Shown here in pieces: positions 45,858 through 58,843 of a stretch of DNA of 64,000 nt. Origin of the DNA: Ancylobacter rudongensis (lineage in GTDB: Bacteria; Pseudomonadota; Alphaproteobacteria; Rhizobiales; Xanthobacteraceae); NCBI RefSeq assembly GCF_900100155.1, contig NZ_FMTP01000001.1, forward strand, positions 806,001 to 870,000, in the 5' to 3' direction. The position numbers and the translations under genes are program-made. The first letter of the stretch is position 1. Every line of letters starts with the position of its first letter. The notes beneath the pieces are model-generated. The model saw nothing but the letters and a program-made list of their open reading frames with translations. It was not told the DNA's origin and ran no database searches.

Positions 45858-46442
45858 ATGAACAATTCGACCGACGTCATCGTCGCCTATTTTGCCGAAA
45901 CCGCCCGTTTGATGGGGCGGCTCGAGGGCATTGCCAGCCAGGTTGCGCAGGCGGCCGATGCCTGCATTGCCGCCCTGTCTTGCGGGGGCAAGGTGATGTT
46001 CTGCGGCAATGGCGGCTCGGCGGCCGATGCTCAGCATCTTGCGGCGGAACTGATGGGGCGCTTCCTGTACGAGCGCGATCCGCTGCCCGCCCTGGCCCTG
46101 ACCATCAACACCTCCGCGCTCACGGCGATCGGCAATGACTATGGCTATGAGCATATCTTCGCCCGCCAGATCCGGGGGATCGGCCGGAACGGCGATGTGC
46201 TGGTCGGCCTGTCCACCAGCGGCCATAGCGCCAATGTGGTGAAGGCCTTCGAGGTTGCCCGCGAGATGGGAATCGTCACCATTGCCCTCACCGGCGCGAC
46301 CTGTGGTGCCCTGGAGCCGCTTTCCGACATCCTGATCCCCGTGCCGCACGGGCAGACCAATCATATCCAGGAAGCTCACATCACGATTGGCCATCTGATC
46401 TGCGGAATTGCCGAATCGGCCCTGCGCCCGCCACGCCGCTGA
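45858..46442 (+). CDS. gmhA: GmhA-type phosphoheptose isomerase (SIS domain)
   Basis: 194 residues. SIS fold with FCGNGGSAADAQHLAAELMGRFLYERDPLPAL, the STSGHSANVVKAFEVAREMG phosphate loop and the catalytic His/Glu region H-I-Q-E-A-H-I-T-I-G-H-L-I. It converts sedoheptulose 7-phosphate to D-glycero-D-manno-heptose 7-phosphate, the entry step for heptose in LPS, S-layer glycans or capsules. The other steps are encoded on the opposite strand, converging on it: HddA and the fused protein. Related DiaA-type SIS proteins are an alternative, but the neighbours support GmhA. Confidence 0.88.
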   Translation: MNNSTDVIVAYFAETARLMGRLEGIASQVAQAADACIAALSCGGKVMFCGNGGSAADAQHLAAELMGRFLYERDPLPALALTINTSALTAIGNDYGYEHIFARQIRGIGRNGDVLVGLSTSGHSANVVKAFEVAREMGIVTIALTGATCGALEPLSDILIPVPHGQTNHIQEAHITIGHLICGIAESALRPPRR

Positions 46443-46508
46443 AACGGACTCAGGCGCCGCCAGGCCTGTTGCTGGTCATGGTTCGGGAGAGGGAGCGCCC
46501 GGCGCGGC

Positions 46509-47504
46509 TCAATCGAAGCACGAGACCGTTGAGCCGGCATCGGTCATCGAGATCGGGATGACGTTGCCGGCTCCGAAATGCTCTCGAAAGGCGTCATGGC
46601 GGGCCGGCTCGGCAATGAAGAGCATGAAGCCGGCACCGCCGGCGCCAAGGAGTTTGCCGCCTTGCGCGCCAAGCGCCTTGCCCTCGAGATAGAGATCGTC
46701 AATGGCCGGGTTGGTGACGCCCTCGCCCAGCTTTCGCTTCAGGCGCCAGCCTTCATCCAGCAAGTCGGCGAAACGCGCCACACTGGCGGTGTCGCTACCT
46801 GACGCTTCCAGGATTTGCGTACCGGTGCGCGTCATCTCATACATCTCGCTGAGATGGGCGCGGTTGTCGCCGCGGGTGGTGCGCAGGTGCTGGCTGTCGA
46901 GCGCGTCGATGGCGCGCCGCTGTGTGCCGGTATAGACGAGCAGAAGCGAGGCATTGAGGGTTGCCAGACGGCTGGTGGTTAGCCGCAGCGGCTCGATGGC
47001 GATGGTGTCGCCGGAAAATTCGTAGCGGGCAAGCCCGCCGAAGGCGGCATGAATCTGGTCCTGTATGCCGACATTCTCCCGGAGAATCTCCTGTTCCATC
47101 CGGATCGCCTGTCGCGCGAGCTCATAGCGTGTCAGCTCGATGCCGCGCATGCGGTGCAAAAGGTTGATGAAGCCGACAGTGAACGCCGACGAACTGCCGA
47201 GACCCGTATTCCCGGGAAGATCGGACATGGTGGCGATGTTGAGCGGGTCTTCCCAGCGATAGAGCTTCAGGGTTTCGCGGATCACCGGATGCTGGATGTC
47301 CTCGATCCGCTGCACGCTCTCGGTCGCCCGGTAGGTGACGCGAAATCTCTGCTCGGCGACGGGAGAGAGGGGAAGAGCCTGGATATAGATGTATTTGTCG
47401 ATCGTGCCGCCCAGCACGGCGCCGGGACTGGAGCGGAAATGCGAGGGATAGTCGGTGCCCCCGCCAAAGAAACTCGCCCGAAGAGGGGTTCTGCTGATCC
47501 ACAT
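46509..47504 (-). CDS. hddA: HddA-type heptose-7-phosphate kinase (GHMP family)
   Basis: 331 residues. GHMP kinase motif L-P-G-N-T-G-L-G-S-S-S-A (ATP loop, about 91-102), an N-terminal SRTPLRASFFGGGTDYP substrate motif and a C-terminal GAQGGKLLGAGGAGFML motif 3. This is the D-glycero-alpha-D-manno-heptose 7-phosphate 1-kinase type (or the closely related fucokinase-like group). It produces the 1,7-bisphosphate for the phosphatase part of the upstream fused gene, 11 bp away. It ends 67 bp from the convergent gmhA. Confidence 0.87.
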   Translation of the reverse strand: MWISRTPLRASFFGGGTDYPSHFRSSPGAVLGGTIDKYIYIQALPLSPVAEQRFRVTYRATESVQRIEDIQHPVIRETLKLYRWEDPLNIATMSDLPGNTGLGSSSAFTVGFINLLHRMRGIELTRYELARQAIRMEQEILRENVGIQDQIHAAFGGLARYEFSGDTIAIEPLRLTTSRLATLNASLLLVYTGTQRRAIDALDSQHLRTTRGDNRAHLSEMYEMTRTGTQILEASGSDTASVARFADLLDEGWRLKRKLGEGVTNPAIDDLYLEGKALGAQGGKLLGAGGAGFMLFIAEPARHDAFREHFGAGNVIPISMTDAGSTVSCFD

Positions 47505-47515
47505 GAGGATACCGC

Positions 47516-48736
47516 TTAAAGCGACGCCGACAGGATGTCGAGCAGCGATCCGTCCTGATACCGAACGGCGCGCAGACCGGCCGCGCGCGCCGCCTCGATA
47601 TCGGCCTCGCCCTTGCCGATCAGGAAGCTCCGGCGGCGCTCCACCGGCCAGGCAGCCAACACATCAAGGATCATGCCAGGACCGGCCTTGCGGCCTGAGC
47701 AATCCTGTCGGGACCCATGAACGGTGGCGTCGCGGTGGTGCGGGCGCCGGTGGAACGCATCGACATGCGCGCCGATCTGCGTCAGCGAGTCCTGCATGGC
47801 GCGGTGAAAGGTCTCGACTGCGGCCTCTTCATACATCCCGCGTGCGACGCCGGACTGGTTCGTGACAACGAAGACAAAGTAGCCCTTATCATTGGCGAGG
47901 GCGACGGCTTCGCGGGCCTGGGGCATCCAGATGAGATCATCGGCGCGGTGGGGGTCGCCACTGTCGCGGGTGAGCGTTCCGTCCCGGTCGAAGAACACGG
48001 CGGGGCGGGTGCGGACATTGATCAGTTCGTCCTGCACCCGGGCAAGGGTCTCCCGGATACCGATATCGACGAAATAGGCGCCCTCGGGTGCCTGAGTGGC
48101 GACAACCCGCCCTTCCGCCACGAGGCGGGGCAGGATCTCCCATTCCAGCGAGCAGGCGCCGTGATGTGCGATGAGGTCGACAATCCGGCGGTCGACGACA
48201 TACACGCCGGCATTGACCAGCGCCGACGCCTCCATGCACCGTGCGTCCTTCTCGACGAAGGAGGTAACCCAGTCGCCCTCCAGCGTCACCCGCCCAAAGC
48301 GGGCGGGATCGGCGACGCGGTGCAGCAACATCTGGACGATCAGCGCAGGGTCGCGTTGCCGTGCCAGCTTCCAGGACCGCATAAAGCGGGTGAGGTCGGC
48401 GTCGATCCAGGAATCGCCGTTCAGCAGCATAAATTCCGGGTCGAGGTGTCCGACCGCGAAACCCAGCGCGCCGCCAGTGCCGAGCGGCGCGGGTTCTGCC
48501 AGTACCTCGATCTCAGCCCCGAAAAGCCGCTGGCGGTGAAAAGCCGCCTTGATCTGCTCGCCAAAGTGGCCGGCCAGTAGAGTGATCCGTGGCACGCCGT
48601 GGCGGGCGACCTCCTGAATGAGATGAAGGAGGAAAGGCCGCCCGGCTACCTCCAGCAGGGGCTTCGGCGTCGCTTCGGTGAGCGTTCCGAGGCGGGTGCC
48701 CAGGCCGCCGCAGAGGATGACCGCCTGAGCGACCAA
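47516..48736 (-). CDS. HddC-type nucleotidyltransferase fused to GmhB-type HAD phosphatase
   Basis: 406 residues, two domains. N-terminal (about 1-235) nucleotidyltransferase with A-V-I-L-C-G-G-L-G-T-R-L-G and L-N-G-D-S-W; C-terminal (about 243-406) HAD domain with FDRDGTL, VVTNQSGVA and DCSGRKAGPGMIL, as in GmhB. Normal GmhB motif IV is G-D-K-x-x-D; here it is G-K-G-E-A-D, so one Asp is replaced by Lys. The start is a TTG: no ATG or GTG occurs in frame upstream before the frame closes. Together with HddA and GmhA it can make GDP-D-glycero-D-manno-heptose (or the ADP form). Order of steps: GmhA, HddA, phosphatase, nucleotidyltransferase. Confidence 0.82.
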   Translation of the reverse strand: MVAQAVILCGGLGTRLGTLTEATPKPLLEVAGRPFLLHLIQEVARHGVPRITLLAGHFGEQIKAAFHRQRLFGAEIEVLAEPAPLGTGGALGFAVGHLDPEFMLLNGDSWIDADLTRFMRSWKLARQRDPALIVQMLLHRVADPARFGRVTLEGDWVTSFVEKDARCMEASALVNAGVYVVDRRIVDLIAHHGACSLEWEILPRLVAEGRVVATQAPEGAYFVDIGIRETLARVQDELINVRTRPAVFFDRDGTLTRDSGDPHRADDLIWMPQAREAVALANDKGYFVFVVTNQSGVARGMYEEAAVETFHRAMQDSLTQIGAHVDAFHRRPHHRDATVHGSRQDCSGRKAGPGMILDVLAAWPVERRRSFLIGKGEADIEAARAAGLRAVRYQDGSLLDILSASL

Positions 48737-49142: not shown

Positions 49143-49445
49143 TCAGTGGCCCAGCGACCATCGCCGTTCGATCGGCGCCGGCTTGTTCTTGCGCGTACCG
49201 CAGAGTGAGCAGCCGCAGCCGGCCAGATGCTCGCGCGAGACCACCTTCGGTTCGGAGGCGGTGCCCTCGGAGCGGGCCAGCGCCCGCCGCAGCGTGCCGT
49301 TCATCGTGCTGAGGCGCGGCATCGCCATCTCACGCGGCGCGCTGGCGGCGCATTCCGGGCAGCAGGCGGGCTGGTCGGCGTCGTTCATCGAACTCCAGCC
49401 CTCGAACGGGCCGCAATCCTCGCAGGCATAGGAATAGAGGGGCAT
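49143..49445 (-). CDS. fmdB: FmdB family zinc-ribbon protein
   Basis: 100 residues. N-terminal zinc ribbon of the FmdB type: MPLYSYACEDCG with C-x-x-C, then A-C-C-P-E-C-A-A; a further Cys cluster near the C-terminus (C-G-C-S-L-C-G) is an addition to the usual ribbon. FmdB of Methylophilus was proposed to regulate the formamidase gene. It is the third gene of the operon fmdA-amiS-fmdB on the minus strand, 61 bp after the channel gene. Confidence 0.87.
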   Translation of the reverse strand: MPLYSYACEDCGPFEGWSSMNDADQPACCPECAASAPREMAMPRLSTMNGTLRRALARSEGTASEPKVVSREHLAGCGCSLCGTRKNKPAPIERRWSLGH

Positions 49446-49506: not shown

Positions 49507-50025
49507 TCAGGGTTGCAGCCAGCCTTGCAGCAGCGACACGCCTGGCACCCAGCCGGTGACGATGCCGATCAGCACCGTAAAGGCGCCGGTGAAGCGCAGG
49601 ATCGGCTGTTTCATCGTGAGCAGCAGGAAGTAGCAGAACCACAGCAGGCCCCAGCCGACCCAGTTCCACCCCATCCAGAGGCTGATGGAACTGTCCGCCC
49701 CCTGAAGCGACTGGATCGCCACCGGCGCCACGGTGATGGCGACGAACAGGCTGAACCAGCCCAGGCCGCGCCCGTCCACCTTGGTGATGCGGTTATAGGC
49801 GACCCAGAAATAGGTGGCGGTGAACAGCAGGGTCAGCGCCGCGCCCTTGATCGAGCCGGCATCCGCCTGCGCGTTGAACGCCCAGAACAGCGAGATGGCG
49901 AGCGTCACCACACCGGAGACGACGTTCACCACGATGATTTCGCGATCTTCGATCTTGCCCAGCAGCCAGAGGCCGTTGAGCACGAGCACCGCGCCGACAT
50001 AGAGCAGGCCCAGTCCGAGCAGCAT
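49507..50025 (-). CDS. amiS: AmiS/UreI family amide/urea channel
   Basis: 172 residues, six hydrophobic segments (about 1-20, 30-50, 59-77, 85-105, 118-137, 143-165), the length and layout of AmiS/UreI. It is an inner-membrane pore for small amides such as formamide, acetamide or urea. It sits between formamidase and FmdB genes, so formamide uptake is the natural role. ATG at 50025; 60 bp after the fmdA stop. Confidence 0.9.
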   Translation of the reverse strand: MLLGLGLLYVGAVLVLNGLWLLGKIEDREIIVVNVVSGVVTLAISLFWAFNAQADAGSIKGAALTLLFTATYFWVAYNRITKVDGRGLGWFSLFVAITVAPVAIQSLQGADSSISLWMGWNWVGWGLLWFCYFLLLTMKQPILRFTGAFTVLIGIVTGWVPGVSLLQGWLQP

Positions 50026-50085: not shown

Positions 50086-51312
50086 TCAGCTCGCGCGGGC
50101 GACGTCGACGCCCGACACCTGCCGGGTGGGCCCGGTGGAGTTCGGGTTGATGTCGAAATCGAAGATCTTGGTCGGGATCGCCACCGTCGCGCAGACATTT
50201 GGGATGTCGACGATGCCGGCAATGCGGCCCTCTACCGGCGCTGTGCCGAGGATCGTGTAGGCCTGCTCGCCTGAATAGCCGAACTTCTTCAGGTACTCGA
50301 TGGCGTTGAGGCAGGCACGGCGATAGGCGACATGGGCGTCGAGATAGTACTGCTCGCCCGTATGCTCGTCGACCGAGATACCCTCGAAGATCAGGTAGTC
50401 ATCGAAATGCGGGTCGATCGGGCTGGGCTTGAAGATCGGATTGATGACGCCGTATTTCGCCATGCCGCCCTTGATGAGGCTCACGCCGATATCGATCCAC
50501 CCGGCCATCTCGATGGCGCCGCAGAAGGTGATTTCACCGTCGCCCTGCGAGAAGTGGATGTCGCCCATGGAGAGACCGCCCCCCTTCACATAGACCGGGA
50601 AGTAGCAACGGGCGCCGCGCGACAGGTTCTTGATGTCGCAATTGCCGCCATGCTCGCGCGGCGGCACGGTACGCCAGCCTTCCGCCGCCGCCTTGTCGCG
50701 GGCGGCGCCGTGCATCTGGCCCATCAGCGCGGTGTCAGAATAAGGCAGGGCGGCGAGCGGGGGCACGCGGTTGGGGTTGGTGGCGACGAGTGCGGCTTCG
50801 CGCCGGTTGGCCTCCGCCAGCAGCTTGTGGTCGGGCAGGCAGCCGATCAGGCCGGGGTGAACCAGGCCGGGGTAGCGCACCCTCGGGACGTGGCGCGAGG
50901 TGGTGTAGATGCCGTGGAAATCCCAGCAGGACTTGACCGCATCGGGATAATGCTCGGTCAGGAAGCCGCCGCCATTGTTCTTGTCGAACAGGCCGTTGAA
51001 GCCCCATTCCGAGCCTTCGAGCGGCCCGATATCGAGAATGTCGACGACCATCAGGTCGCCCGGCTCGGCGCCTTCGACGCCAAACGGTCCGCTGAGATAG
51101 TGCACCTTGGTCAGGTCGACGTCGCGCACGTCGTTGGCGCTGTCATTGTTGCCGATCTGGCCGCCAGTCCAGTCGTAGCACTCGACCCGGAACTCGTCGC
51201 CGGGCTTGAACATCTCGACCATGGGAATGTCGGGATGCCAGCGATTATGGGTCTTGATGTCCTGGTCTTCCGGCGCCTTGTTGAGATCGATCTTGAAGAC
51301 GGTCTTGGCCAT
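50086..51312 (-). CDS. fmdA: Formamidase (acetamidase/formamidase family)
   Basis: 408 residues, the usual FmdA length. Start MAKTVFKIDLNKAPEDQD and internal HNRWHPDIPMVEMFKPGDEFRVECYDWTGGQI are typical of FmdA. LSMGDIHFSQGDGEITFCGAIEM holds metal and active-site candidates. It hydrolyses formamide to formate and ammonia in the cytoplasm: nitrogen for growth, and formate that a methylotroph can oxidise. The ATG at 51312 has the ribosome site AGGAGGAA; the longer frame to 51447 was rejected. Divergent from the OmpR-type regulator gene. Confidence 0.94.
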   Translation of the reverse strand: MAKTVFKIDLNKAPEDQDIKTHNRWHPDIPMVEMFKPGDEFRVECYDWTGGQIGNNDSANDVRDVDLTKVHYLSGPFGVEGAEPGDLMVVDILDIGPLEGSEWGFNGLFDKNNGGGFLTEHYPDAVKSCWDFHGIYTTSRHVPRVRYPGLVHPGLIGCLPDHKLLAEANRREAALVATNPNRVPPLAALPYSDTALMGQMHGAARDKAAAEGWRTVPPREHGGNCDIKNLSRGARCYFPVYVKGGGLSMGDIHFSQGDGEITFCGAIEMAGWIDIGVSLIKGGMAKYGVINPIFKPSPIDPHFDDYLIFEGISVDEHTGEQYYLDAHVAYRRACLNAIEYLKKFGYSGEQAYTILGTAPVEGRIAGIVDIPNVCATVAIPTKIFDFDINPNSTGPTRQVSGVDVARAS

Positions 51313-51415: not shown

Positions 51416-51463
51416 TGTAAGCGCCCTACCCGCGCCGGGGGTGGCAAATGTAAAGTTTTGTAA
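51416..51463. promoter_or_regulatory. TGTAA direct repeats in the fmdA/regulator divergent region
   Basis: TGTAA at 51416, 51449 and 51459. The last two are exactly 10 bp apart (TGTAAAGTTT-TGTAATTCCG) in the only AT-rich stretch of the 250-bp region. OmpR-family regulators bind such direct half-sites one helical turn apart, so this is a candidate box for the adjacent regulator, acting on fmdA and/or itself. Confidence 0.5.
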
Positions 51464-51562
51464 TTCCGGCTGTGTGGCTGCCCATTGCCCGCCCCGACCG
51501 GCTATGATCGACCTCAAGGCGACGAAAAGTCGTCTCGGTGCGCGAATGCACGGGGCGGTAGG

Positions 51563-52294
51563 ATGGGCGAAACGGTGCGCATGCCGCGCATCCTGATGGT
51601 GGACGACGACCGCCGCATGTGCGGATTCGTCACCAAATTCCTCGCGCGGGAAGGCTTTTCGGCGGAGTTCGCGCTGGACGGCACCAGCATGCGCGACGCT
51701 CTCGCCGCCACCAGCTTCGACCTCATCATCCTCGACCTGACCTTTCCGCGCGGAGAGGACGGCCTGTCGCTGGCGCGCACGGTGCGTGCGACCGGGCACA
51801 TGCCATTGCTCGTGCTCTCGGCCAAATGCGAAACGGTCGACAAGATCGTCTGCCTCGAACTTGGTGCCGATGACTATGTGACCAAGCCGTTCGAGCCGCG
51901 CGAGCTGCTGGCGCGCATCCGCGCTTTGCTGCGGCGCGCCCGTGGCATGAGCCGCGGCGCCCAGCCGTTGGAGGGGCCGGACAAGCGCGTGCGCTTCGGG
52001 GCGTGGCGGCTCGACCTCGACGGCCGCGACCTGATCCGCCCGGACGGCACCCGGGTGGCCTTGACCAGCCACGAATTCCGCCTGCTGGTCGCGCTCGCCG
52101 AGCGGCCCGGCCGCGTGCTCACCCGCGACCAGATGCTTGACCTCGTCGCCAACCGGCAATGGGCGCCGTTCGACCGCAGCATCGACGTGCTGGTCGGCAA
52201 GCTGCGCCGCAAGCTGGACGACGGCACCGGCCACCAGGTCATCAAGACCGTTCGCGGCGAGGGCTATGTCTTCACCCCGCCCCCGCCGCATTGA
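51563..52294 (+). CDS. OmpR-family response regulator
   Basis: 243 residues. Receiver domain (about 1-125) with acidic pocket D-D-D, phosphoacceptor Asp in L-I-I-L-D-L-T-F-P and conserved Lys in Y-V-T-K-P-F. C-terminal winged helix (about 150-240) with VALTSHEFRLLVALAERPGRVLTRDQML. Divergent from fmdA, and convergent with the kinase genes, with 17 bp between stops. It probably controls the formamide operon in response to the transporter-linked kinase. The start could also be at 51581 (MPRILMVDDD). Confidence 0.88.
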   Translation: MGETVRMPRILMVDDDRRMCGFVTKFLAREGFSAEFALDGTSMRDALAATSFDLIILDLTFPRGEDGLSLARTVRATGHMPLLVLSAKCETVDKIVCLELGADDYVTKPFEPRELLARIRALLRRARGMSRGAQPLEGPDKRVRFGAWRLDLDGRDLIRPDGTRVALTSHEFRLLVALAERPGRVLTRDQMLDLVANRQWAPFDRSIDVLVGKLRRKLDDGTGHQVIKTVRGEGYVFTPPPPH

Positions 52295-52311: not shown

Positions 52312-53466
52312 TCAGGGACGCGACGGCATCGCCGGCAGCAGTAGCGTGATCCGCGTGCCCACGCCGGCCTCGCTCTCGATGAGGAGATTGCCACCGGACT
52401 GGCGCGCGAATCCGTAGGCGGTGGGCAGGCCGAGACCGCTGCCGCTCTCGGCCGGCTTGGTGGAGAAGAACGGCTGCAGCGCGTTCTCGGCGATATCGGC
52501 GGCCATGCCGCAGCCGTCATCCTGGACCACGATTCCGGCATACGCGCCCGGCGCCATGTCGGCGAGCAGAAAGGCCGAGCCGGGCTGCAGATCGCATGGT
52601 TCGAGCTCGACCCGCACGGTGCCGGCGCCCGCCACCGCGTCGCGGGCATTGAAGATCAGGTTCAACAGGCTGGCTTCGAGCTGATGCGGATCGGCGACTG
52701 CGAGGCAGTCGACGGGTAGCCGGGACAGTTCCAGCGTGATCCCCGCACCGAAGGCGTGGCGCGCCCGGCTCACGACCTGTTCGACTGCGTGGCCGAGATC
52801 CAGCACACGCGGCAGCAGCGGCTGCGCCCGGCCGACGGCGAGCAGGCGCCGGTTGGCGCAGATGCCGTCCTCGACCGCCCCCAGGGCGTCGCCGACCAAT
52901 TCGCGCATGATGGCGGGGTCGCCCGCCGCGCCCCGCGCCAATTCCTCCTGCAGGAGCTTGAGGTTTCCCCCCACCACTGTGAGCAGGTTGTTGAAGTCGT
53001 GAGCGATGCCGGCCGAGAGCCGGCCAACGGCCTCCATGCGGCGGCTGCGGCGCAGCAATTCTTCCGCCTGCGCACGGTCTGCCGCCAGGCGGTGCCGGTC
53101 GAAGCATCGGGCCAGCGTTGCCAGCAGCTCGGCGGGCTCGAACGGCTTGCAGACATAGTCGTAGATGCCGGCCTGCAATGCCTTGATGGCGGTCTGCACC
53201 GAGGCATAGGCGGTGACCATGACCGTGAGCAGCTCCGGACGCTGCCGCCCCAGCTCAATGGCGATCGCCACCCCGTCCTCATGGCCGAGGCGAATGTCGA
53301 CCAGCGCCACCGCCACCGCCACCGCCGTAACCGCGTCCCGCGCGGCCGCCCCGTCATGGGCGACAACAACGTCATAGCCTTCCATTTCCAGCAGCAGGGC
53401 AAGGCTGGCCGCGAAGTCGTGGTCGTCGTCCACGATCAGGACGCGCCGCTTCTCGTCATGCCACAT
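52312..53466 (-). CDS. Receiver-histidine kinase hybrid
   Basis: 384 residues. N-terminal REC domain (about 1-125, phosphoacceptor Asp in L-V-D-I-R-L-G, Lys in V-C-K-P-F-E), a short coiled coil, H-box G-I-A-H-D-F-N-N-L-L (about 168) and HATPase region with N-L-I-F-N-A-R-D-A and D-D-G-C-G-M, then SGSGLGLPTAYG. No membrane segment: soluble. It is the middle element of a likely phosphorelay between the NCS1-fused kinase (whose end it overlaps by 11 bp) and the OmpR regulator. The ATG at 53466 was chosen over a longer frame. Confidence 0.87.
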   Translation of the reverse strand: MWHDEKRRVLIVDDDHDFAASLALLLEMEGYDVVVAHDGAAARDAVTAVAVAVALVDIRLGHEDGVAIAIELGRQRPELLTVMVTAYASVQTAIKALQAGIYDYVCKPFEPAELLATLARCFDRHRLAADRAQAEELLRRSRRMEAVGRLSAGIAHDFNNLLTVVGGNLKLLQEELARGAAGDPAIMRELVGDALGAVEDGICANRRLLAVGRAQPLLPRVLDLGHAVEQVVSRARHAFGAGITLELSRLPVDCLAVADPHQLEASLLNLIFNARDAVAGAGTVRVELEPCDLQPGSAFLLADMAPGAYAGIVVQDDGCGMAADIAENALQPFFSTKPAESGSGLGLPTAYGFARQSGGNLLIESEAGVGTRITLLLPAMPSRP

Positions 53467-56113
53467 GTGGGCGCTCCGCAGTGGCGGCGGGCAGGAAGAT
53501 GTCGACCCGCGTACCCTCGCCGGGACGGGAGGCGACGACAACACGGCCGCCATGGCGCTCGACCAGGCGCCGGACCAGAGCGAGGCCGAGGCCGAGGCCG
53601 AAGGGCTTTGTGCTGAAAAGGGGCTCGAACAGCCGCTGGGTGGCCTCCTCGCTCATGCCGACGCCATTGTCGGCGACGGTCAGCCGCACGCTCTCCTCCT
53701 CGCAGGCTGTTTCGATTCGGACCCGCCCCGCCGCGCCGCCGGCCGGGCGTTCGAGTACCGCCTGCATGGCGTTCTGGACCAGATTGACCAGAACCTGCCG
53801 CAGCCGCTCGCCATCGGCCTCGATCATGCGGTCGCACTGCAACTCCAGTTCGAGCGCGACCGGCGATAGCGCCCGCAGATCCGCCACCTGCTCGACGATC
53901 CAGGCGTCGAGCGCCAGCGGCACCATGGTGACATTGGGGCGGCGGGAGAATTCGAGCAGGTCGTCGATGATGCGCACGCAGCGGCGCACATTGCGCTGGA
54001 TCCGGTCGAGTTCGTTGCGCTCCCGCTCCCCGGCCATGCCGCCGGCCCGCTGCAGCACGGCGACAGAGGTGGCGAGCGTGCCGAGTGGGTTGCGCAATTC
54101 ATGGCTGACGGTCGCGGTGAGCTGGCCGAGGGCCGCGAGGCGCTCGCTGCGGGTGAGTTCCTCGCGCGTCTCGTAGAGTTTCTCCAGCGAGCCGACGAGG
54201 TTGCGCTCGGCGAGTTCCCGGCTCTCATTGGCCAGCACGATCCACCAGGCGCTGATCGCCAGCAGCGGCAGGAGAGCGAGGAAGATCCGCAGCAGCAGCG
54301 CGCCATTGTCGAGATGCGGCACATCCTCGCCTGGGTCGATCAGCCGGTAGGTGAGCAGAAACAGCGCGCCCGTCACCACTGCGAGGGCGACCAGAACACC
54401 GGCGACCTTCAAAAGCCGCTGCGGCATATGCGGGGCGATGCGCCGGGTGAACCCGCCACCGAAATAGCGCGAGCGCGAGGTCTCCAGATCCTGATGCGAC
54501 TTCTTGCAGGCGTCGTGGCAGTGCGCATCGAGGCTGCAGCACAGCGAGCAGATCGGACGCTCGTAGAAGCTGCAATAGGCCATGTCGTCCCGCTCATAGC
54601 CATGATCGCAGATTTCGCAGCGCAGCACCGCCGAGGGCTCTGAGCCGAGGCTCGGATGCACCGGTGGGCGGGCGAGATAGTAGCGCCCGCCGGTGGCGAA
54701 GCCGATCAGCGTCGCGGTCAGAAAGGCGACGAGGAATGAGAAGGGCGCGGCATAGGCCTGCATCAGCGGCCCCAGAATGCCGGTGAAGGCGGTGAGCGAG
54801 ACCAGCGAGCCCAGCGCCATGCCGCCGCAGCCCACCGGATTGATATCGTGCAGATGCGCGCGCTTGAACTCGATGAAGCCGGGGCTGACCTTGAGCGGCT
54901 TCAGCACCAGCAGGTCGGCGACGATCGCCCCGACCCACGCCATGGCGATGTTGGAATAGACCGCGAGCACCACCTCCAGCGTGTCGAAGATGCCGAGCAG
55001 CATCAGCAGCAGCGAGATGAGGATGTTGAACACCAGCCAGACCACCCGGCCGGGATGGTAGTGCGTCACGCGCGAGAAGAAGTTCGACCAGGCGAGCGAG
55101 CCGGCATAGGCGTTGGTGACGTTGATCTTGATCTGCGAGATCAGCACGAAGAACGTCGCGCAGAACAGCACCAGCGCCGGGTTTTCGAACACGTAGCCAT
55201 AAGCCACAATGTACATGTGGATCGGCTCCAGCGCCGCCGGACGCGGCAGGCCGCTGCCCAGCACGAGCACCGCCAGCAAGCCGCCGGCCAGGATCTTCAG
55301 CCCGCCGATCAGGATCCAGCCCGGCCCGGCCAGGATGACCGTGCTCCACCAGCCAAGCCGGTTGGCCGGCGTCTTCTCCGGCAGGAAGCGCAGATAATCC
55401 GCCTGCTCGCCGATCTGTACGACCAGCGAGCACATCATGCTGACCGCCGCGCCGAAGGCGAGCACGTCGAAGCCGCGCGAGCCGGTTTCCAGCCCGGCGA
55501 ACTGGGTCCACGCGGCGATGTCTTCCGGCGCCTTCACCGCGATCAGCACGAAGGGCAGCATCATCATCCCGACCCAGAGCGGCTGCGTCACCATCTGTAG
55601 CCGCGAGATCATGGTGATGCCCATGAGCGTGAGCGGGATGATCACCAGCGAGGAGACGATATAGCCCAGCACCAGCGGCACATCGGCGTAGATCTTCAGC
55701 GCCTGCGCCATGATCGCGCCTTCCAGCGCGAAAAAGATGAAGGTGAAGCTAGCATAGATCAGGGATGTGATGGTCGAGCCGATATAGCCGAAGCCGGCAC
55801 CTCGGGTCAGGAGATCGAGGTCGACGCCGTATTTGCTGGAGTAATAGGCGATCGGCAGGCTGGTGACGAAGATGAACGCCGAAACGACGAGGATCGCCAG
55901 CCCGGCATTCATGAAGCCGTAGCTCAGCGTGATCGAGGCGCCGATCGTCTCCAGCGCGAGGAAGGATATGCCTCCCAGCGCCGTGTTGGCGATGACGAAG
56001 GGCGACCAGCGACGGAAGGAGCGCGCGGTGTAGCGCAGCGAATAGTCTTCCAGCGTCTCGTTGGCGATCCAGGAGTGATAGGACCGCAAGGCGGGTAGGT
56101 CAGGCGTTTCCAC
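53456..56113 (-). CDS. NCS1 transporter - Cys-rich module - histidine kinase fusion
   Basis: 885 residues. Residues about 1-480 are a full NCS1 (cytosine/purine/allantoin permease) domain with about 12 helices, including the segment GVDLDLLTRGAGFGYIGSTI and the cytoplasmic loop SRLQMVTQPLWVGMMM. Residues about 498-540 hold at least eight Cys and two His (CEICDHG, CSFYERPICSLCC, CHDACKK), a zinc-ribbon-like module. Two more helices (about 568-590 and 605-625) lead to a coiled coil, the H-box S-H-E-L-R-N-P (His about 671) and an HATPase domain with D-N-G-V-G-M and GLGLGLALVRRL. The transporter half would sense or co-sense its substrate and control autophosphorylation. Neighbouring formamidase suggests a nitrogenous small molecule as signal. 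Confidence 0.9.
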   Translation of the reverse strand: METPDLPALRSYHSWIANETLEDYSLRYTARSFRRWSPFVIANTALGGISFLALETIGASITLSYGFMNAGLAILVVSAFIFVTSLPIAYYSSKYGVDLDLLTRGAGFGYIGSTITSLIYASFTFIFFALEGAIMAQALKIYADVPLVLGYIVSSLVIIPLTLMGITMISRLQMVTQPLWVGMMMLPFVLIAVKAPEDIAAWTQFAGLETGSRGFDVLAFGAAVSMMCSLVVQIGEQADYLRFLPEKTPANRLGWWSTVILAGPGWILIGGLKILAGGLLAVLVLGSGLPRPAALEPIHMYIVAYGYVFENPALVLFCATFFVLISQIKINVTNAYAGSLAWSNFFSRVTHYHPGRVVWLVFNILISLLLMLLGIFDTLEVVLAVYSNIAMAWVGAIVADLLVLKPLKVSPGFIEFKRAHLHDINPVGCGGMALGSLVSLTAFTGILGPLMQAYAAPFSFLVAFLTATLIGFATGGRYYLARPPVHPSLGSEPSAVLRCEICDHGYERDDMAYCSFYERPICSLCCSLDAHCHDACKKSHQDLETSRSRYFGGGFTRRIAPHMPQRLLKVAGVLVALAVVTGALFLLTYRLIDPGEDVPHLDNGALLLRIFLALLPLLAISAWWIVLANESRELAERNLVGSLEKLYETREELTRSERLAALGQLTATVSHELRNPLGTLATSVAVLQRAGGMAGERERNELDRIQRNVRRCVRIIDDLLEFSRRPNVTMVPLALDAWIVEQVADLRALSPVALELELQCDRMIEADGERLRQVLVNLVQNAMQAVLERPAGGAAGRVRIETACEEESVRLTVADNGVGMSEEATQRLFEPLFSTKPFGLGLGLALVRRLVERHGGRVVVASRPGEGTRVDIFLPAATAERPHVA

Positions 56114-56633: not shown

Positions 56634-58226
56634 GTGTCGGGCAGCGAAGACCAGATGGAGACCTCGTTCCGCGTCACGCGCCTGCAACTCGCCGTGGCGG
56701 GCGGCCTGTCGCTCGCGCTGGTCGCCCTGTTCGTCGCGACCATGCCCTTTGCGCGCCTGCCGACGCACGACACCGAAATCCTCGTACCCGCCTATGCCGC
56801 CGCGACCTTTGTGCTGGAGGCGATGACGGCGGCCCTCCTTTTCGCGCTCTACAGTGCGAGGCGCCAGCTTCCACTGCTCTTCCTCGCCTCCGGCTACCTG
56901 TTCGGCGCCCTTATGCTCGCGCCCTGGGCACTGACCTTTCCGGGCGTCTTCACCGGCTTCGACATGGATGCGGGGCTGCAGGTCACGGCCGCCTTCGGCC
57001 TGTTGCGCCGGCTGGCCTTTCCGCTTTTCGTGCTTGCCTATGCTCTGGCCCCGCGTCGGGAGATCGCGACCAACGCCGCGCTGGTCGCGGTCAGCGTGTG
57101 CCTCGGGGCGACGGTGCTGATCGAGGCGACCCTGTTCTTTCGCGACTGGCTGCCGCCGCTGATGCGCGACGGGCGGCAGGTAAACCTGCTGTGGCAGGTC
57201 GTCCCCGCCCTGGCGATGATGCTCTATGCCGTTGATATCGTGCTGCTGCTCTGGTTTCGCCGTTCGGCGCTGAGCCTGTGGGTCTGCATCGTCCTCTTCT
57301 CGCTCAGCATCGAATTGCTGCTGATCTCCTATCTCGGTGGCGGCACGCGGCTGAGCGTGGGCTGGTGGGCCGGCCGGCTCTACGGTCTGGTGGCAATGAG
57401 CATCATCCTGCTGGTCCTGATCGCCCAGACCACGCTGGTGCATGTCCGCCTCGCCCGCACCGTGGCGGCCGAGTTGCGCAGCCGGGAGAAGCGGCTGACC
57501 GCGATGGAAGCGCTCTCCGCCTCGATCGCCCATGAGATCAACCAGCCCCTCGCCAGCATGGTGACAAATGCCGATGCGGCGCTGCGCTGGCTGTCCAAGG
57601 CCGAGCCGCGCATCGACAAGGCGGAGCTGGCGCTGCGCCGGATCGTCGAGGACGGGCACCGGGCCAATGGCGTGGTCGCGGGCATCCGCACCATGTTCAC
57701 CAAGGGCACGCGCGAGCGGGCCGAACTGGACCTTGCGGCCATCGTCGCGCAGGCAGCTTCGGAGGCGGCCCGCGACGCGCGCCATTTCGGCGTGGAGATC
57801 GCGGTCGAAGGCGAGCGCGAGGTGCCGCCCGTCATCGGCAACGCCGTGCAACTGCATCATGTGCTGCGCAACCTGATCGAGAACGCGGTCGATGCCGTGC
57901 GCACGGCGCCGCTGCGGGCGCGCCGCGTAACGGTGCGGCTGACGCAGGAGCCGCATGGCGACGTGCATGTCTGCGTCGCCGACACCGGCGCCGGCATCGC
58001 CGCCGAGGTGGCCGAGCGGCTGTTCGACCCCTTCGTCACCACCAAGCCCGGCGGCATGGGCATGGGGCTGATGTTCTGCCGCGCCGTGGTCGAGGCACAT
58101 GGCGGCAGCATCTGGGTCAGCGCGAACACGCCGCACGGGGCCATCTTCCATTTCTCGCTTCCCGTGGCGATCCTGTCTGTGGCAGACGCGCAGACGAGGC
58201 CCAGCGTGGAGGAGAAAGCCCGATGA
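56634..58226 (+). CDS. MASE4-domain sensor histidine kinase
   Basis: 530 residues. N-terminal eight-helix membrane domain (about 15-270) with the MASE4 pattern [26 protein letters not shown]-box [12 protein letters not shown] (His about 301) of the FixL type, HATPase with [14 protein letters not shown] and G-M-G-M-G-L. No PAS domain is seen. Starts at GTG 56634; ATG at 56655 is possible. It forms a pair with the regulator overlapping its 3' end by four bases (ATGA). The signal is unknown. Confidence 0.87.
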
Positions 58227-58843
58227 CGGACGCGGTGGTCTATGTCGTCGACGACGACCGCTCGGTGCTCGCCTCGCTGGAAAGCCTTCTGTCCTGCGAA
58301 GGCTATGCGGTGCTCACCTATGAGTCGCCGAAGGACTTCCTGAACGCCCGATGCCCGGACCTTCCCGGCTGTCTCATCCTCGATGTGCGGCTGCGCGGGG
58401 CGAGCGGGCTCGAATTCCAGCGCGAACTCGCGCGCGCCGGCATCGCCACGCCCATCGTCTTCATCACCGGCCATGGCGACGTGCCGATGTCGGTGACGGC
58501 GATGAAATCCGGCGCCGTCGAATTCCTGCTCAAGCCTTTCCGCGACCAGGACCTGCTCGATGCGGTGCGCGAGGGCATCGCCCGTGACCGCCAGCGCCGG
58601 GCGCGCGACGCCGAGATTACGGCGCTGCGCCGACGTCAGGCGGCGTTGACGCCGCGCGAGCGCGAACTGATGCCGCTCATCGCCAGCGGGCTGATGAACA
58701 AGCAGATCGCCGCCCAGCTGCAGCTGAGCGAGGCGACGGTGAAGGTGCACCGGGCCCAGATCATGCAGAAGCTGCAGGCACGCACCATCGCCGATCTGGT
58801 ACGGATCGCCGACCAGCTGGCCGCCCCTGGCTCCGGAGCGTAG
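58223..58843 (+). CDS. FixJ/NarL-type response regulator
   Basis: 206 residues. REC domain with V-V-D-D-D, phosphoacceptor Asp in L-I-L-D-V-R-L, Thr/Lys in F-I-T-G-H-G and L-K-P-F-R. C-terminal LuxR helix-turn-helix with [37 protein letters not shown]. It is the cognate partner of the MASE4 kinase gene it overlaps. Its targets may include the hydrolase-amidohydrolase operon immediately downstream. Confidence 0.9.

Follow-up and report, generated by a model that had tools for sequence, protein, structure and literature searches.

The 64,000-nucleotide stretch of the Ancylobacter rudongensis genome analysed in this study (the window) codes on its minus strand for a permease-kinase fusion of 885 amino acids (53456..56113), here called TK. 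In this protein a transporter-type membrane domain of the nucleobase-importer kind is joined to a signalling kinase. The permease domain with NCS1 fold spans residues ~24-480 (54674..56044, minus strand like all parts of TK) and was assigned by structure comparison, hhalign, and profile matches. It is followed by an eight-cysteine module at residues 499-537 (54503..54619), formed by C499, C502, C514, C522, C525, C526, C532, and C536, and by two extra transmembrane helices at residues ~564-630 (54224..54424), which were predicted as helices and are hydrophobic in sequence. The kinase part consists of a HisKA domain with an H-box and the phospho-acceptor H671 (residues 662-725, 53939..54130) and a HATPase_c domain (residues 767-877, 53483..53815), which makes TK a HisKA-type histidine kinase.

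Next on the minus strand is a 413-aa frame (52312..53553) for a receiver-HisKA-HATPase protein (RR-HK), whose HisKA match scored 22.2 bits, under the cut-off of 26.9. Its start is likely at 53466, overlapping the TK stop. An OmpR-family response regulator gene on the plus strand (51485..52294; PF00072, PF00486) is divergent from the formamidase gene fmdA on the minus strand (50086..51312), whose start was placed at the ATG at 51312 in a frame open to 51447. The formamidase passed the equivalog model NF045496 with 768 bits (cut-off 500) and matched PF03069 at 5e-182. Also on the minus strand are genes for an AmiS/UreI-family transporter (49507..50025; PF02293, 2.6e-55) and an FmdB-type zinc-ribbon protein (49143..49445; TIGR02605, 8.8e-13; PF09723, 1.6e-11), relatives of which were found in 30 of 33 loci. 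An earlier note, made from the sequence of the window, had described the permease-kinase fusion at this position, two further helices and a HisKA/HATPase core in it, and a formamidase and an OmpR regulator beside it. The fusion was confirmed as an observation, and helix prediction and the profile matches given above recovered the other elements. A MASE4-HisKA-HATPase kinase gene (56634-58843, plus strand) adjoins the TK gene divergently and is followed by a gene for a FixJ/NarL-type response regulator. Since the best match of the MASE4 kinase, at those loci where it had one, was the kinase domain of TK, it probably lies outside the conserved unit.

A profile search covered a sample of 398 genomes spread over the phylum; at most three candidates were scored per genome, so that extra copies may be missed. 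Matches were obtained in 55 genomes; dropping G078 and G233, which gave weak matches to standalone permeases, left 53 TK genomes, two of which hold fragments (G263 and G275). We compared 77 loci (32 + 5 + 40, the last set, L076-L115, being chosen for spread and not comprising all places from the profile search). L033 was excluded from the clusters as an unrelated kinase, and L024 had no callable frame. The 76 loci with a callable fusion comprised 27 of a short class, in which 25 of the 27 fusions measure 875-929 aa, and 49 of a long class (1114-1353 aa, apart from a single frame of 1892 aa). L027, the only long member scanned whole, gave Pfam matches to HisKA, HATPase_c, and a receiver at the C-terminus, and the 48 aligned long members have conserved receiver residues. 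Residue counts refer to 74 aligned TK proteins (26 short, 48 long), with L020, L026, and L044 omitted because of short, broken, or overlong frames; H671 and E672 are present in all of them. Mean identity between short and long members (26 and 48 sequences) was 55.1% for the permease, 50.7% for the Cys module, 23.4% for the extra helices, and 25.5% for the kinase. Judged from these sequences, the sensor part appears to be retained between the classes and the kinase/output part exchanged. Both classes occur in the A. rudongensis genome (L034 and L035, contig C7), the short copy in the window and a long copy ~576 kb away, which adjoins its own fmdA and Urt genes.

The NCS1 fold of the permease domain was recognized by comparison of predicted structures and by hhalign. 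Identity to CodB and Mhp1 in the structural alignment was 15-18%. The fold was seen via VIA re-alignment and a second TK model; Foldseek with the full-length TK model returned only kinases among the best 50 matches listed. PF02133 was matched by none of 46 TK family members at E up to 1, and TK gave no direct match to an NCS1 profile in Pfam or NCBIfam. Therefore, the NCS1 ancestry is argued indirectly, from remote homology only, as seen in hhalign and in relatives shared in profile searches. From CodB and Mhp1, which belong to the NCS1 transporters (PF02133/TIGR00800), TK differs in the missing PF02133 match, in the replacement, by alignment, of the substrate clamp and the sodium-site threonines, and in its fusion to a kinase. 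The region 5949-9168 of L073 contains a standalone NCS1 permease with 28% identity to the TK permease; the frame that immediately follows it, of 614 aa, matches carbon-nitrogen hydrolase (PF00795) twice. This permease may import amides or nitriles and may hint at the ancestor.

The available part of PMC9379551 describes NCS1 substrates as clamped by aromatic residues, a Trp of transmembrane helix (TM) 3 and a Phe or Trp of TM6, and places the sodium-site hydroxyls of CodB, Thr278 and Thr279, on TM8. Pocket residues of CodB from this source were transferred to the standalone permease L074 through a CodB-L074 alignment and from there to TK through an L074-TK alignment; these equivalences are thus derived from low-identity sequence alignments (about 20%) and not from superposed coordinates. 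T124, E131, Q233, E236, Q237, K329, N331, and N334 are kept in 74/74 TK proteins, which include 8 urease-linked as well as formamidase-linked members. CodB Gln105 aligns with T124 and Mhp1 Gln121 with E131. The canonical aromatic clamp is absent by alignment from the 74 proteins, which have neither a TM3 Trp nor a fixed TM6 aromatic residue: CodB Trp108 aligns with F127 (Phe in 70, Leu in 4), and CodB Phe204 with L230 (74/74) if a gap is ignored or with S229 (Ala/Ser in 73/74) if it is counted. The TM8 threonines are likewise replaced by alignment, Thr278 by K329 (74/74) and Thr279 by I330 (73/74). L074, which matches PF02133, has Ala in TM6 as well. NCS1 proteins vary at the sodium-site position, which is Arg in L073 and L074 and Lys in L075; hence, a charge there is not restricted to the fusions. 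Urease-linked (8) and formamidase-linked (57) members differ at permease positions 267 (Val/Ile), 296 (Asp/Glu), and 380 (Gly/Glu).

With no Trp in TM3, no fixed clamp aromatic in TM6, and a fixed positive charge at the CodB sodium site, the pocket is strictly conserved yet not of the known nucleobase type. This atypical constitution makes nucleobases and hydantoins less likely ligands than urea or short-chain amides. Of the earlier proposal of an NCS1-type permease, fold and remote homology held, although the domain is far from a typical NCS1 protein; of the ligands proposed with it, formamide was kept and hydantoins and nucleobases became less likely. Degenerate substrate-site residues, which the earlier note had named as speaking against its idea, did not occur, as the pocket positions are invariant.

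All eight cysteines of the module, which follows the last permease helix and precedes the two extra helices, are present in 74/74 TK proteins; H533 is present in 47/74. The even helix count points to a probable cytoplasmic location, and the eight cysteines suggest two metal sites. A profile of 23 Cys modules matched 52 of the 398 genomes, namely the 53 fusion genomes minus G275, and every match listed sits in a TK-sized frame of the same length as the fusion frame. Thus, the module is private to TK fusions in this sample. Scans of 18 and 46 TK members gave no Pfam zinc-ribbon match to the module, only weak single matches to Prok-RING_1 (E 3.5, 1/18 members) and CRIPT (E 0.029, 1/46). PDB sequences compared with an 18-member permease-Cys profile gave one chance-level match, the CRIPT chain 7dvq_0 (E 3.1). 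Where the initial description spoke of a zinc-ribbon-like Cys/His cluster, we describe an eight-Cys module that was not recognized as a zinc ribbon in these scans. Its strict conservation and its restriction to the TK family among the 398 genomes would also suit a module that is itself the sensor, for metal, redox state, or an Fe-S cluster, with the permease only setting a threshold or the membrane site. We regard this as very improbable, because between the classes the permease is conserved no less than the module (55.1% versus 50.7%) and has an invariant pocket, because the neighbors assigned to a family are genes for amides and urea, and because two metal sites built of cysteines only may have a purely structural role.

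Linkage to genes of amide and urea metabolism was found in both classes. One representative each of UrtA-E, FmdA, aliphatic amidase, and urease alpha scored over the curated cut-off; the neighbor families named here are those identified, and several other recurring frames at TK loci are unannotated. In the short class, RR-HK was present at 27/27 loci, and OmpR regulator, FmdA, and AmiS at 26/27 each, all three lacking at L008. The phosphorylation residues of RR-HK (27 sequences) and of the OmpR regulator (26) are conserved. A response-regulator gene accompanies the long class at 49/49 loci; in the one tested, L027, it is LuxR-type (PF00072, PF00196), and a fragment taken as the regulator at L076 gave no match at the strict limit. 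Urt and/or urease genes were found at 49/49 long-class loci, in the combinations FmdA+Urt (21), FmdA+AmiE+Urt (11), Urt only (7), UreC only (6), AmiE+Urt (2), and UreC+Urt (2). Of the 41 loci where the UrtA-type frame was clustered, 40 carry it and TK on opposite strands, and an annotated Azospirillum plasmid has the same gene order as the long-class loci. FmdA (NF045496) matched 75 of the 398 genomes, 40 of them over the cut-off, the 35 sub-cut-off matches being left uncounted. TK occurs in 39 of these 40 genomes, and for 38 of them the starts of the two genes lie within 13 kb of each other; in G150 they are on different contigs. The co-occurrence has a Fisher p of 5e-41, uncorrected for kinship.

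A conserved direct repeat was detected upstream of fmdA. In the window, TTACA-N5-TTACA (51449..51463, minus strand) constitutes a proposed operator, and a third TTACA half-site lies 33 bp after the second (51416..51420, minus strand). The repeat occurs once each in the window and in the 26 short-class loci with fmdA (27/27), on the fmdA strand and 146-179 bp before the formamidase start. A third TTAC(A/G) follows at a start-to-start distance of 33 bp in 24 of the 27, 32 bp in 2, and 34 bp in 1. No match was found across the 49 long-class stretches or in the L008 stretch, and none of 100 dinucleotide shuffles of the window gave a match. A genome-wide scan, made with the longer form TTACAAAANTTTACAT only and allowing up to one mismatch, found a single occurrence in the 4.5-Mb genome. 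Half-sites 10 bp apart suit OmpR-family binding, and we infer that the OmpR-type regulator binds the TTACA repeat. For the long class, TACGT-N4-TGACG was found in 18 of 40 regions upstream of TK and possibly serves as binding site for the LuxR-type regulator; in each of three mononucleotide shuffles, no pattern reached more than 5 regions.

The best explanation, to which we assign a probability of roughly two in three, is that TK, an NCS1-type permease turned sensor, serves as a receptor whose ligands are small urea-like amides: formamide, urea, and perhaps acetamide. TK probably senses small amides because it adjoins genes for the uptake and breakdown of those compounds; the chemistry common to its neighbors, as far as their predicted families tell, is that of urea and short amides. 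This ligand assignment draws on the shared neighbors and on the induction of the fmd cluster of Methylophilus methylotrophus by formamide and urea, as stated in the available part of PMC10781810. Urea or a short amide would bind to the former substrate pocket, and the resulting movement would reach the kinase via the eight-Cys module and the two extra helices and lead to its autophosphorylation on H671. In the short class, the phosphoryl group would probably be transferred to the OmpR-type regulator, directly or via RR-HK, and this regulator would bind the TTACA repeats and induce fmdA-amiS-fmdB. At long-class loci, near urtABCDE, formamidase, amidase, or urease genes, the fused receiver and the LuxR-type regulator would be driven by the same receptor. 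The genome-context survey for fmdA linkage suggested in the earlier note gave a very strong association, and missing co-occurrence with amidase operons, its second point of possible refutation, was not what we found. As a whole, the interpretation in that note is partly supported; among the supported points is the sensing of a nitrogenous small molecule, a role that is probable from the amide/urea linkage and the kept pocket.

Several points weigh against this explanation. The association does not tell which of formamide, urea, and acetamide is the ligand. Over-cut-off FmdA is lacking in 14 of the 53 TK genomes, one FmdA genome (G153) is without TK, and 35 further genomes with sub-cut-off FmdA matches did not enter the co-occurrence. 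As loci of one class are related, the locus counts are not independent. In L008 (Nitratireductor pacificus), TK and RR-HK are retained in a stretch without OmpR regulator, fmdA, amiS, and TTACA repeat, which may reflect loss, rearrangement, or an assembly break and indicates that the unit can come apart. In the pocket, residue equivalences rest on alignments of ~20% identity, the position matching CodB Phe204 may be off by one because of the one-residue gap in TM6, and the nearby residue 228 is Phe in 37/74 TK proteins. The OmpR-type regulator is a candidate for the protein binding the TTACA repeat.

Another nitrogen ligand, namely ammonium, a hydantoin, or a nucleobase, with the link to amide genes reflecting general nitrogen control, would be in line with the known NCS1 substrates (nucleobases, hydantoins, and allantoin) and with the repression of the M. 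methylotrophus fmd cluster by high ammonia, given in the same excerpt of PMC10781810. We consider it improbable, since TK has no fixed TM6 clamp aromatic and no TM3 clamp Trp and the recurring neighbors identified are urea/amide genes, although several recurring frames are unannotated.

Sensing fits the small-amide receptor better than import, because most loci already have AmiS or an ABC transporter. There is a precedent in Ks-Amt5, whose transporter domain binds without efficient translocation according to the available text of PMC5764959. The domain might alternatively be part of a true transceptor that still imports amide or urea, driven by protons, with the kinase reading transport turnover as proposed for CbrA. 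The kept pocket positions accord with this, as does the invariant K329 at the position of CodB Thr278, given that CbrA and other proton-coupled transporters of the same fold have a lysine pointing into that site (PMC13022988, available portion). However, AmiS or UrtABCDE occurs in the same cluster at most loci (neither was seen at 6 urease-linked loci and L008), and binding without efficient transport is possible, as in Ks-Amt5. Furthermore, the lysine of TK is on TM8; in ApcT the lysine sits on another helix. All in all, a transceptor seems unlikely to us.

Transporter-kinase fusions of the SLC5, Amt, and S-component-fold types are already known; the NCS1 type was not found described among the open-licence PMC papers listed by our searches. 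According to the portions of the literature available, the SLC5-STAC histidine kinases CbrA, CrbS, and RpuS resemble TK in combining a LeuT-fold transporter domain, an intervening module, and a kinase, and CbrA also in the lysine at the sodium site (PMC13022988). They differ in their SLC5 as opposed to NCS1 ancestry and in that the TK linker carries the eight-Cys module and two extra helices; ligand and regulon probably differ as well. The transporter domain of TK is not of the SLC5 type, and Pfam scans of the TK family turned up no STAC match, the presence of a STAC model in Pfam being unconfirmed. In the ammonium sensor kinase Ks-Amt5, as proposed for TK, a transporter fused to a kinase has come to sense a nitrogen compound; it differs in its Amt domain and its ligand, ammonium, and a Cys module is not mentioned in the available text (PMC5764959). 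The 5TMR sensor kinases share with TK a membrane fold common to transporters and kinases, which is the ECF S-component fold and not the LeuT fold; NCS1 is unmentioned in the main text as far as available (PMC11109136). As in the window, the fmd cluster of M. methylotrophus comprises formamidase, FmdB, and amide/urea uptake genes, but the accessible section of PMC10781810 names a putative positive regulator and no sensor kinase. An amiE-fmdAB-urtABCDE locus without amiC or amiR appears in the available part of PMC13209695 (2026). GrtK, considered as an earlier example of a permease-kinase fusion, was rejected as it is not a permease fusion. We found no study of an NCS1-kinase fusion, nor of a sensor kinase for fmd or urt operons, among the open-licence PMC papers listed, of which the review PMC8399564 names NCS1 only in a thesis reference; the assumption that experimental studies of NCS1-fused kinases are lacking is borne out to this extent.

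TK is proposed as sensor for formamidase and urea-uptake operons. Whether the family moreover constitutes a distinct receptor-kinase class, in which an NCS1 permease was rebuilt as a urea/amide receptor and supplies the missing inducer sensor of these operons across Pseudomonadota, is in our judgement an even question. In such a class the clamp would have been removed to fit a one-carbon amide, a lysine charge placed at the CodB sodium site, and a private eight-Cys coupling element added, and kinase and regulator would have been swapped at least once with the sensor fixed. Permease-kinase fusions are among the cleanest ways to ask how transporter movement becomes a signal, and the TK family adds another transporter lineage. 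Its likely small and cheap ligand, proposed target operon, and compact upstream repeat make induction, binding, and coupling directly testable.

Two minor observations were made besides. A long-class fusion is encoded on the conjugative IncFIB Klebsiella plasmid NZ_CP063888.1 (L135), adjoining urtABCDE and a gene annotated as formamidase, and Klebsiella accounts for 342 of the 528 plasmid records matching TK. Some records name the fusion 'ArcB' or 'response regulator'; among the matches listed, 10 of 12 annotated plasmid fusions in one set and, with one standalone permease left out, 13 of 19 in another are named 'ATP-binding protein'. Elsewhere in the window, at 45858-48736, a SIS-domain protein, a GHMP kinase, and a nucleotidyltransferase-HAD protein are encoded together according to their Pfam domains, presumably resembling a heptose-type sugar nucleotide cluster.

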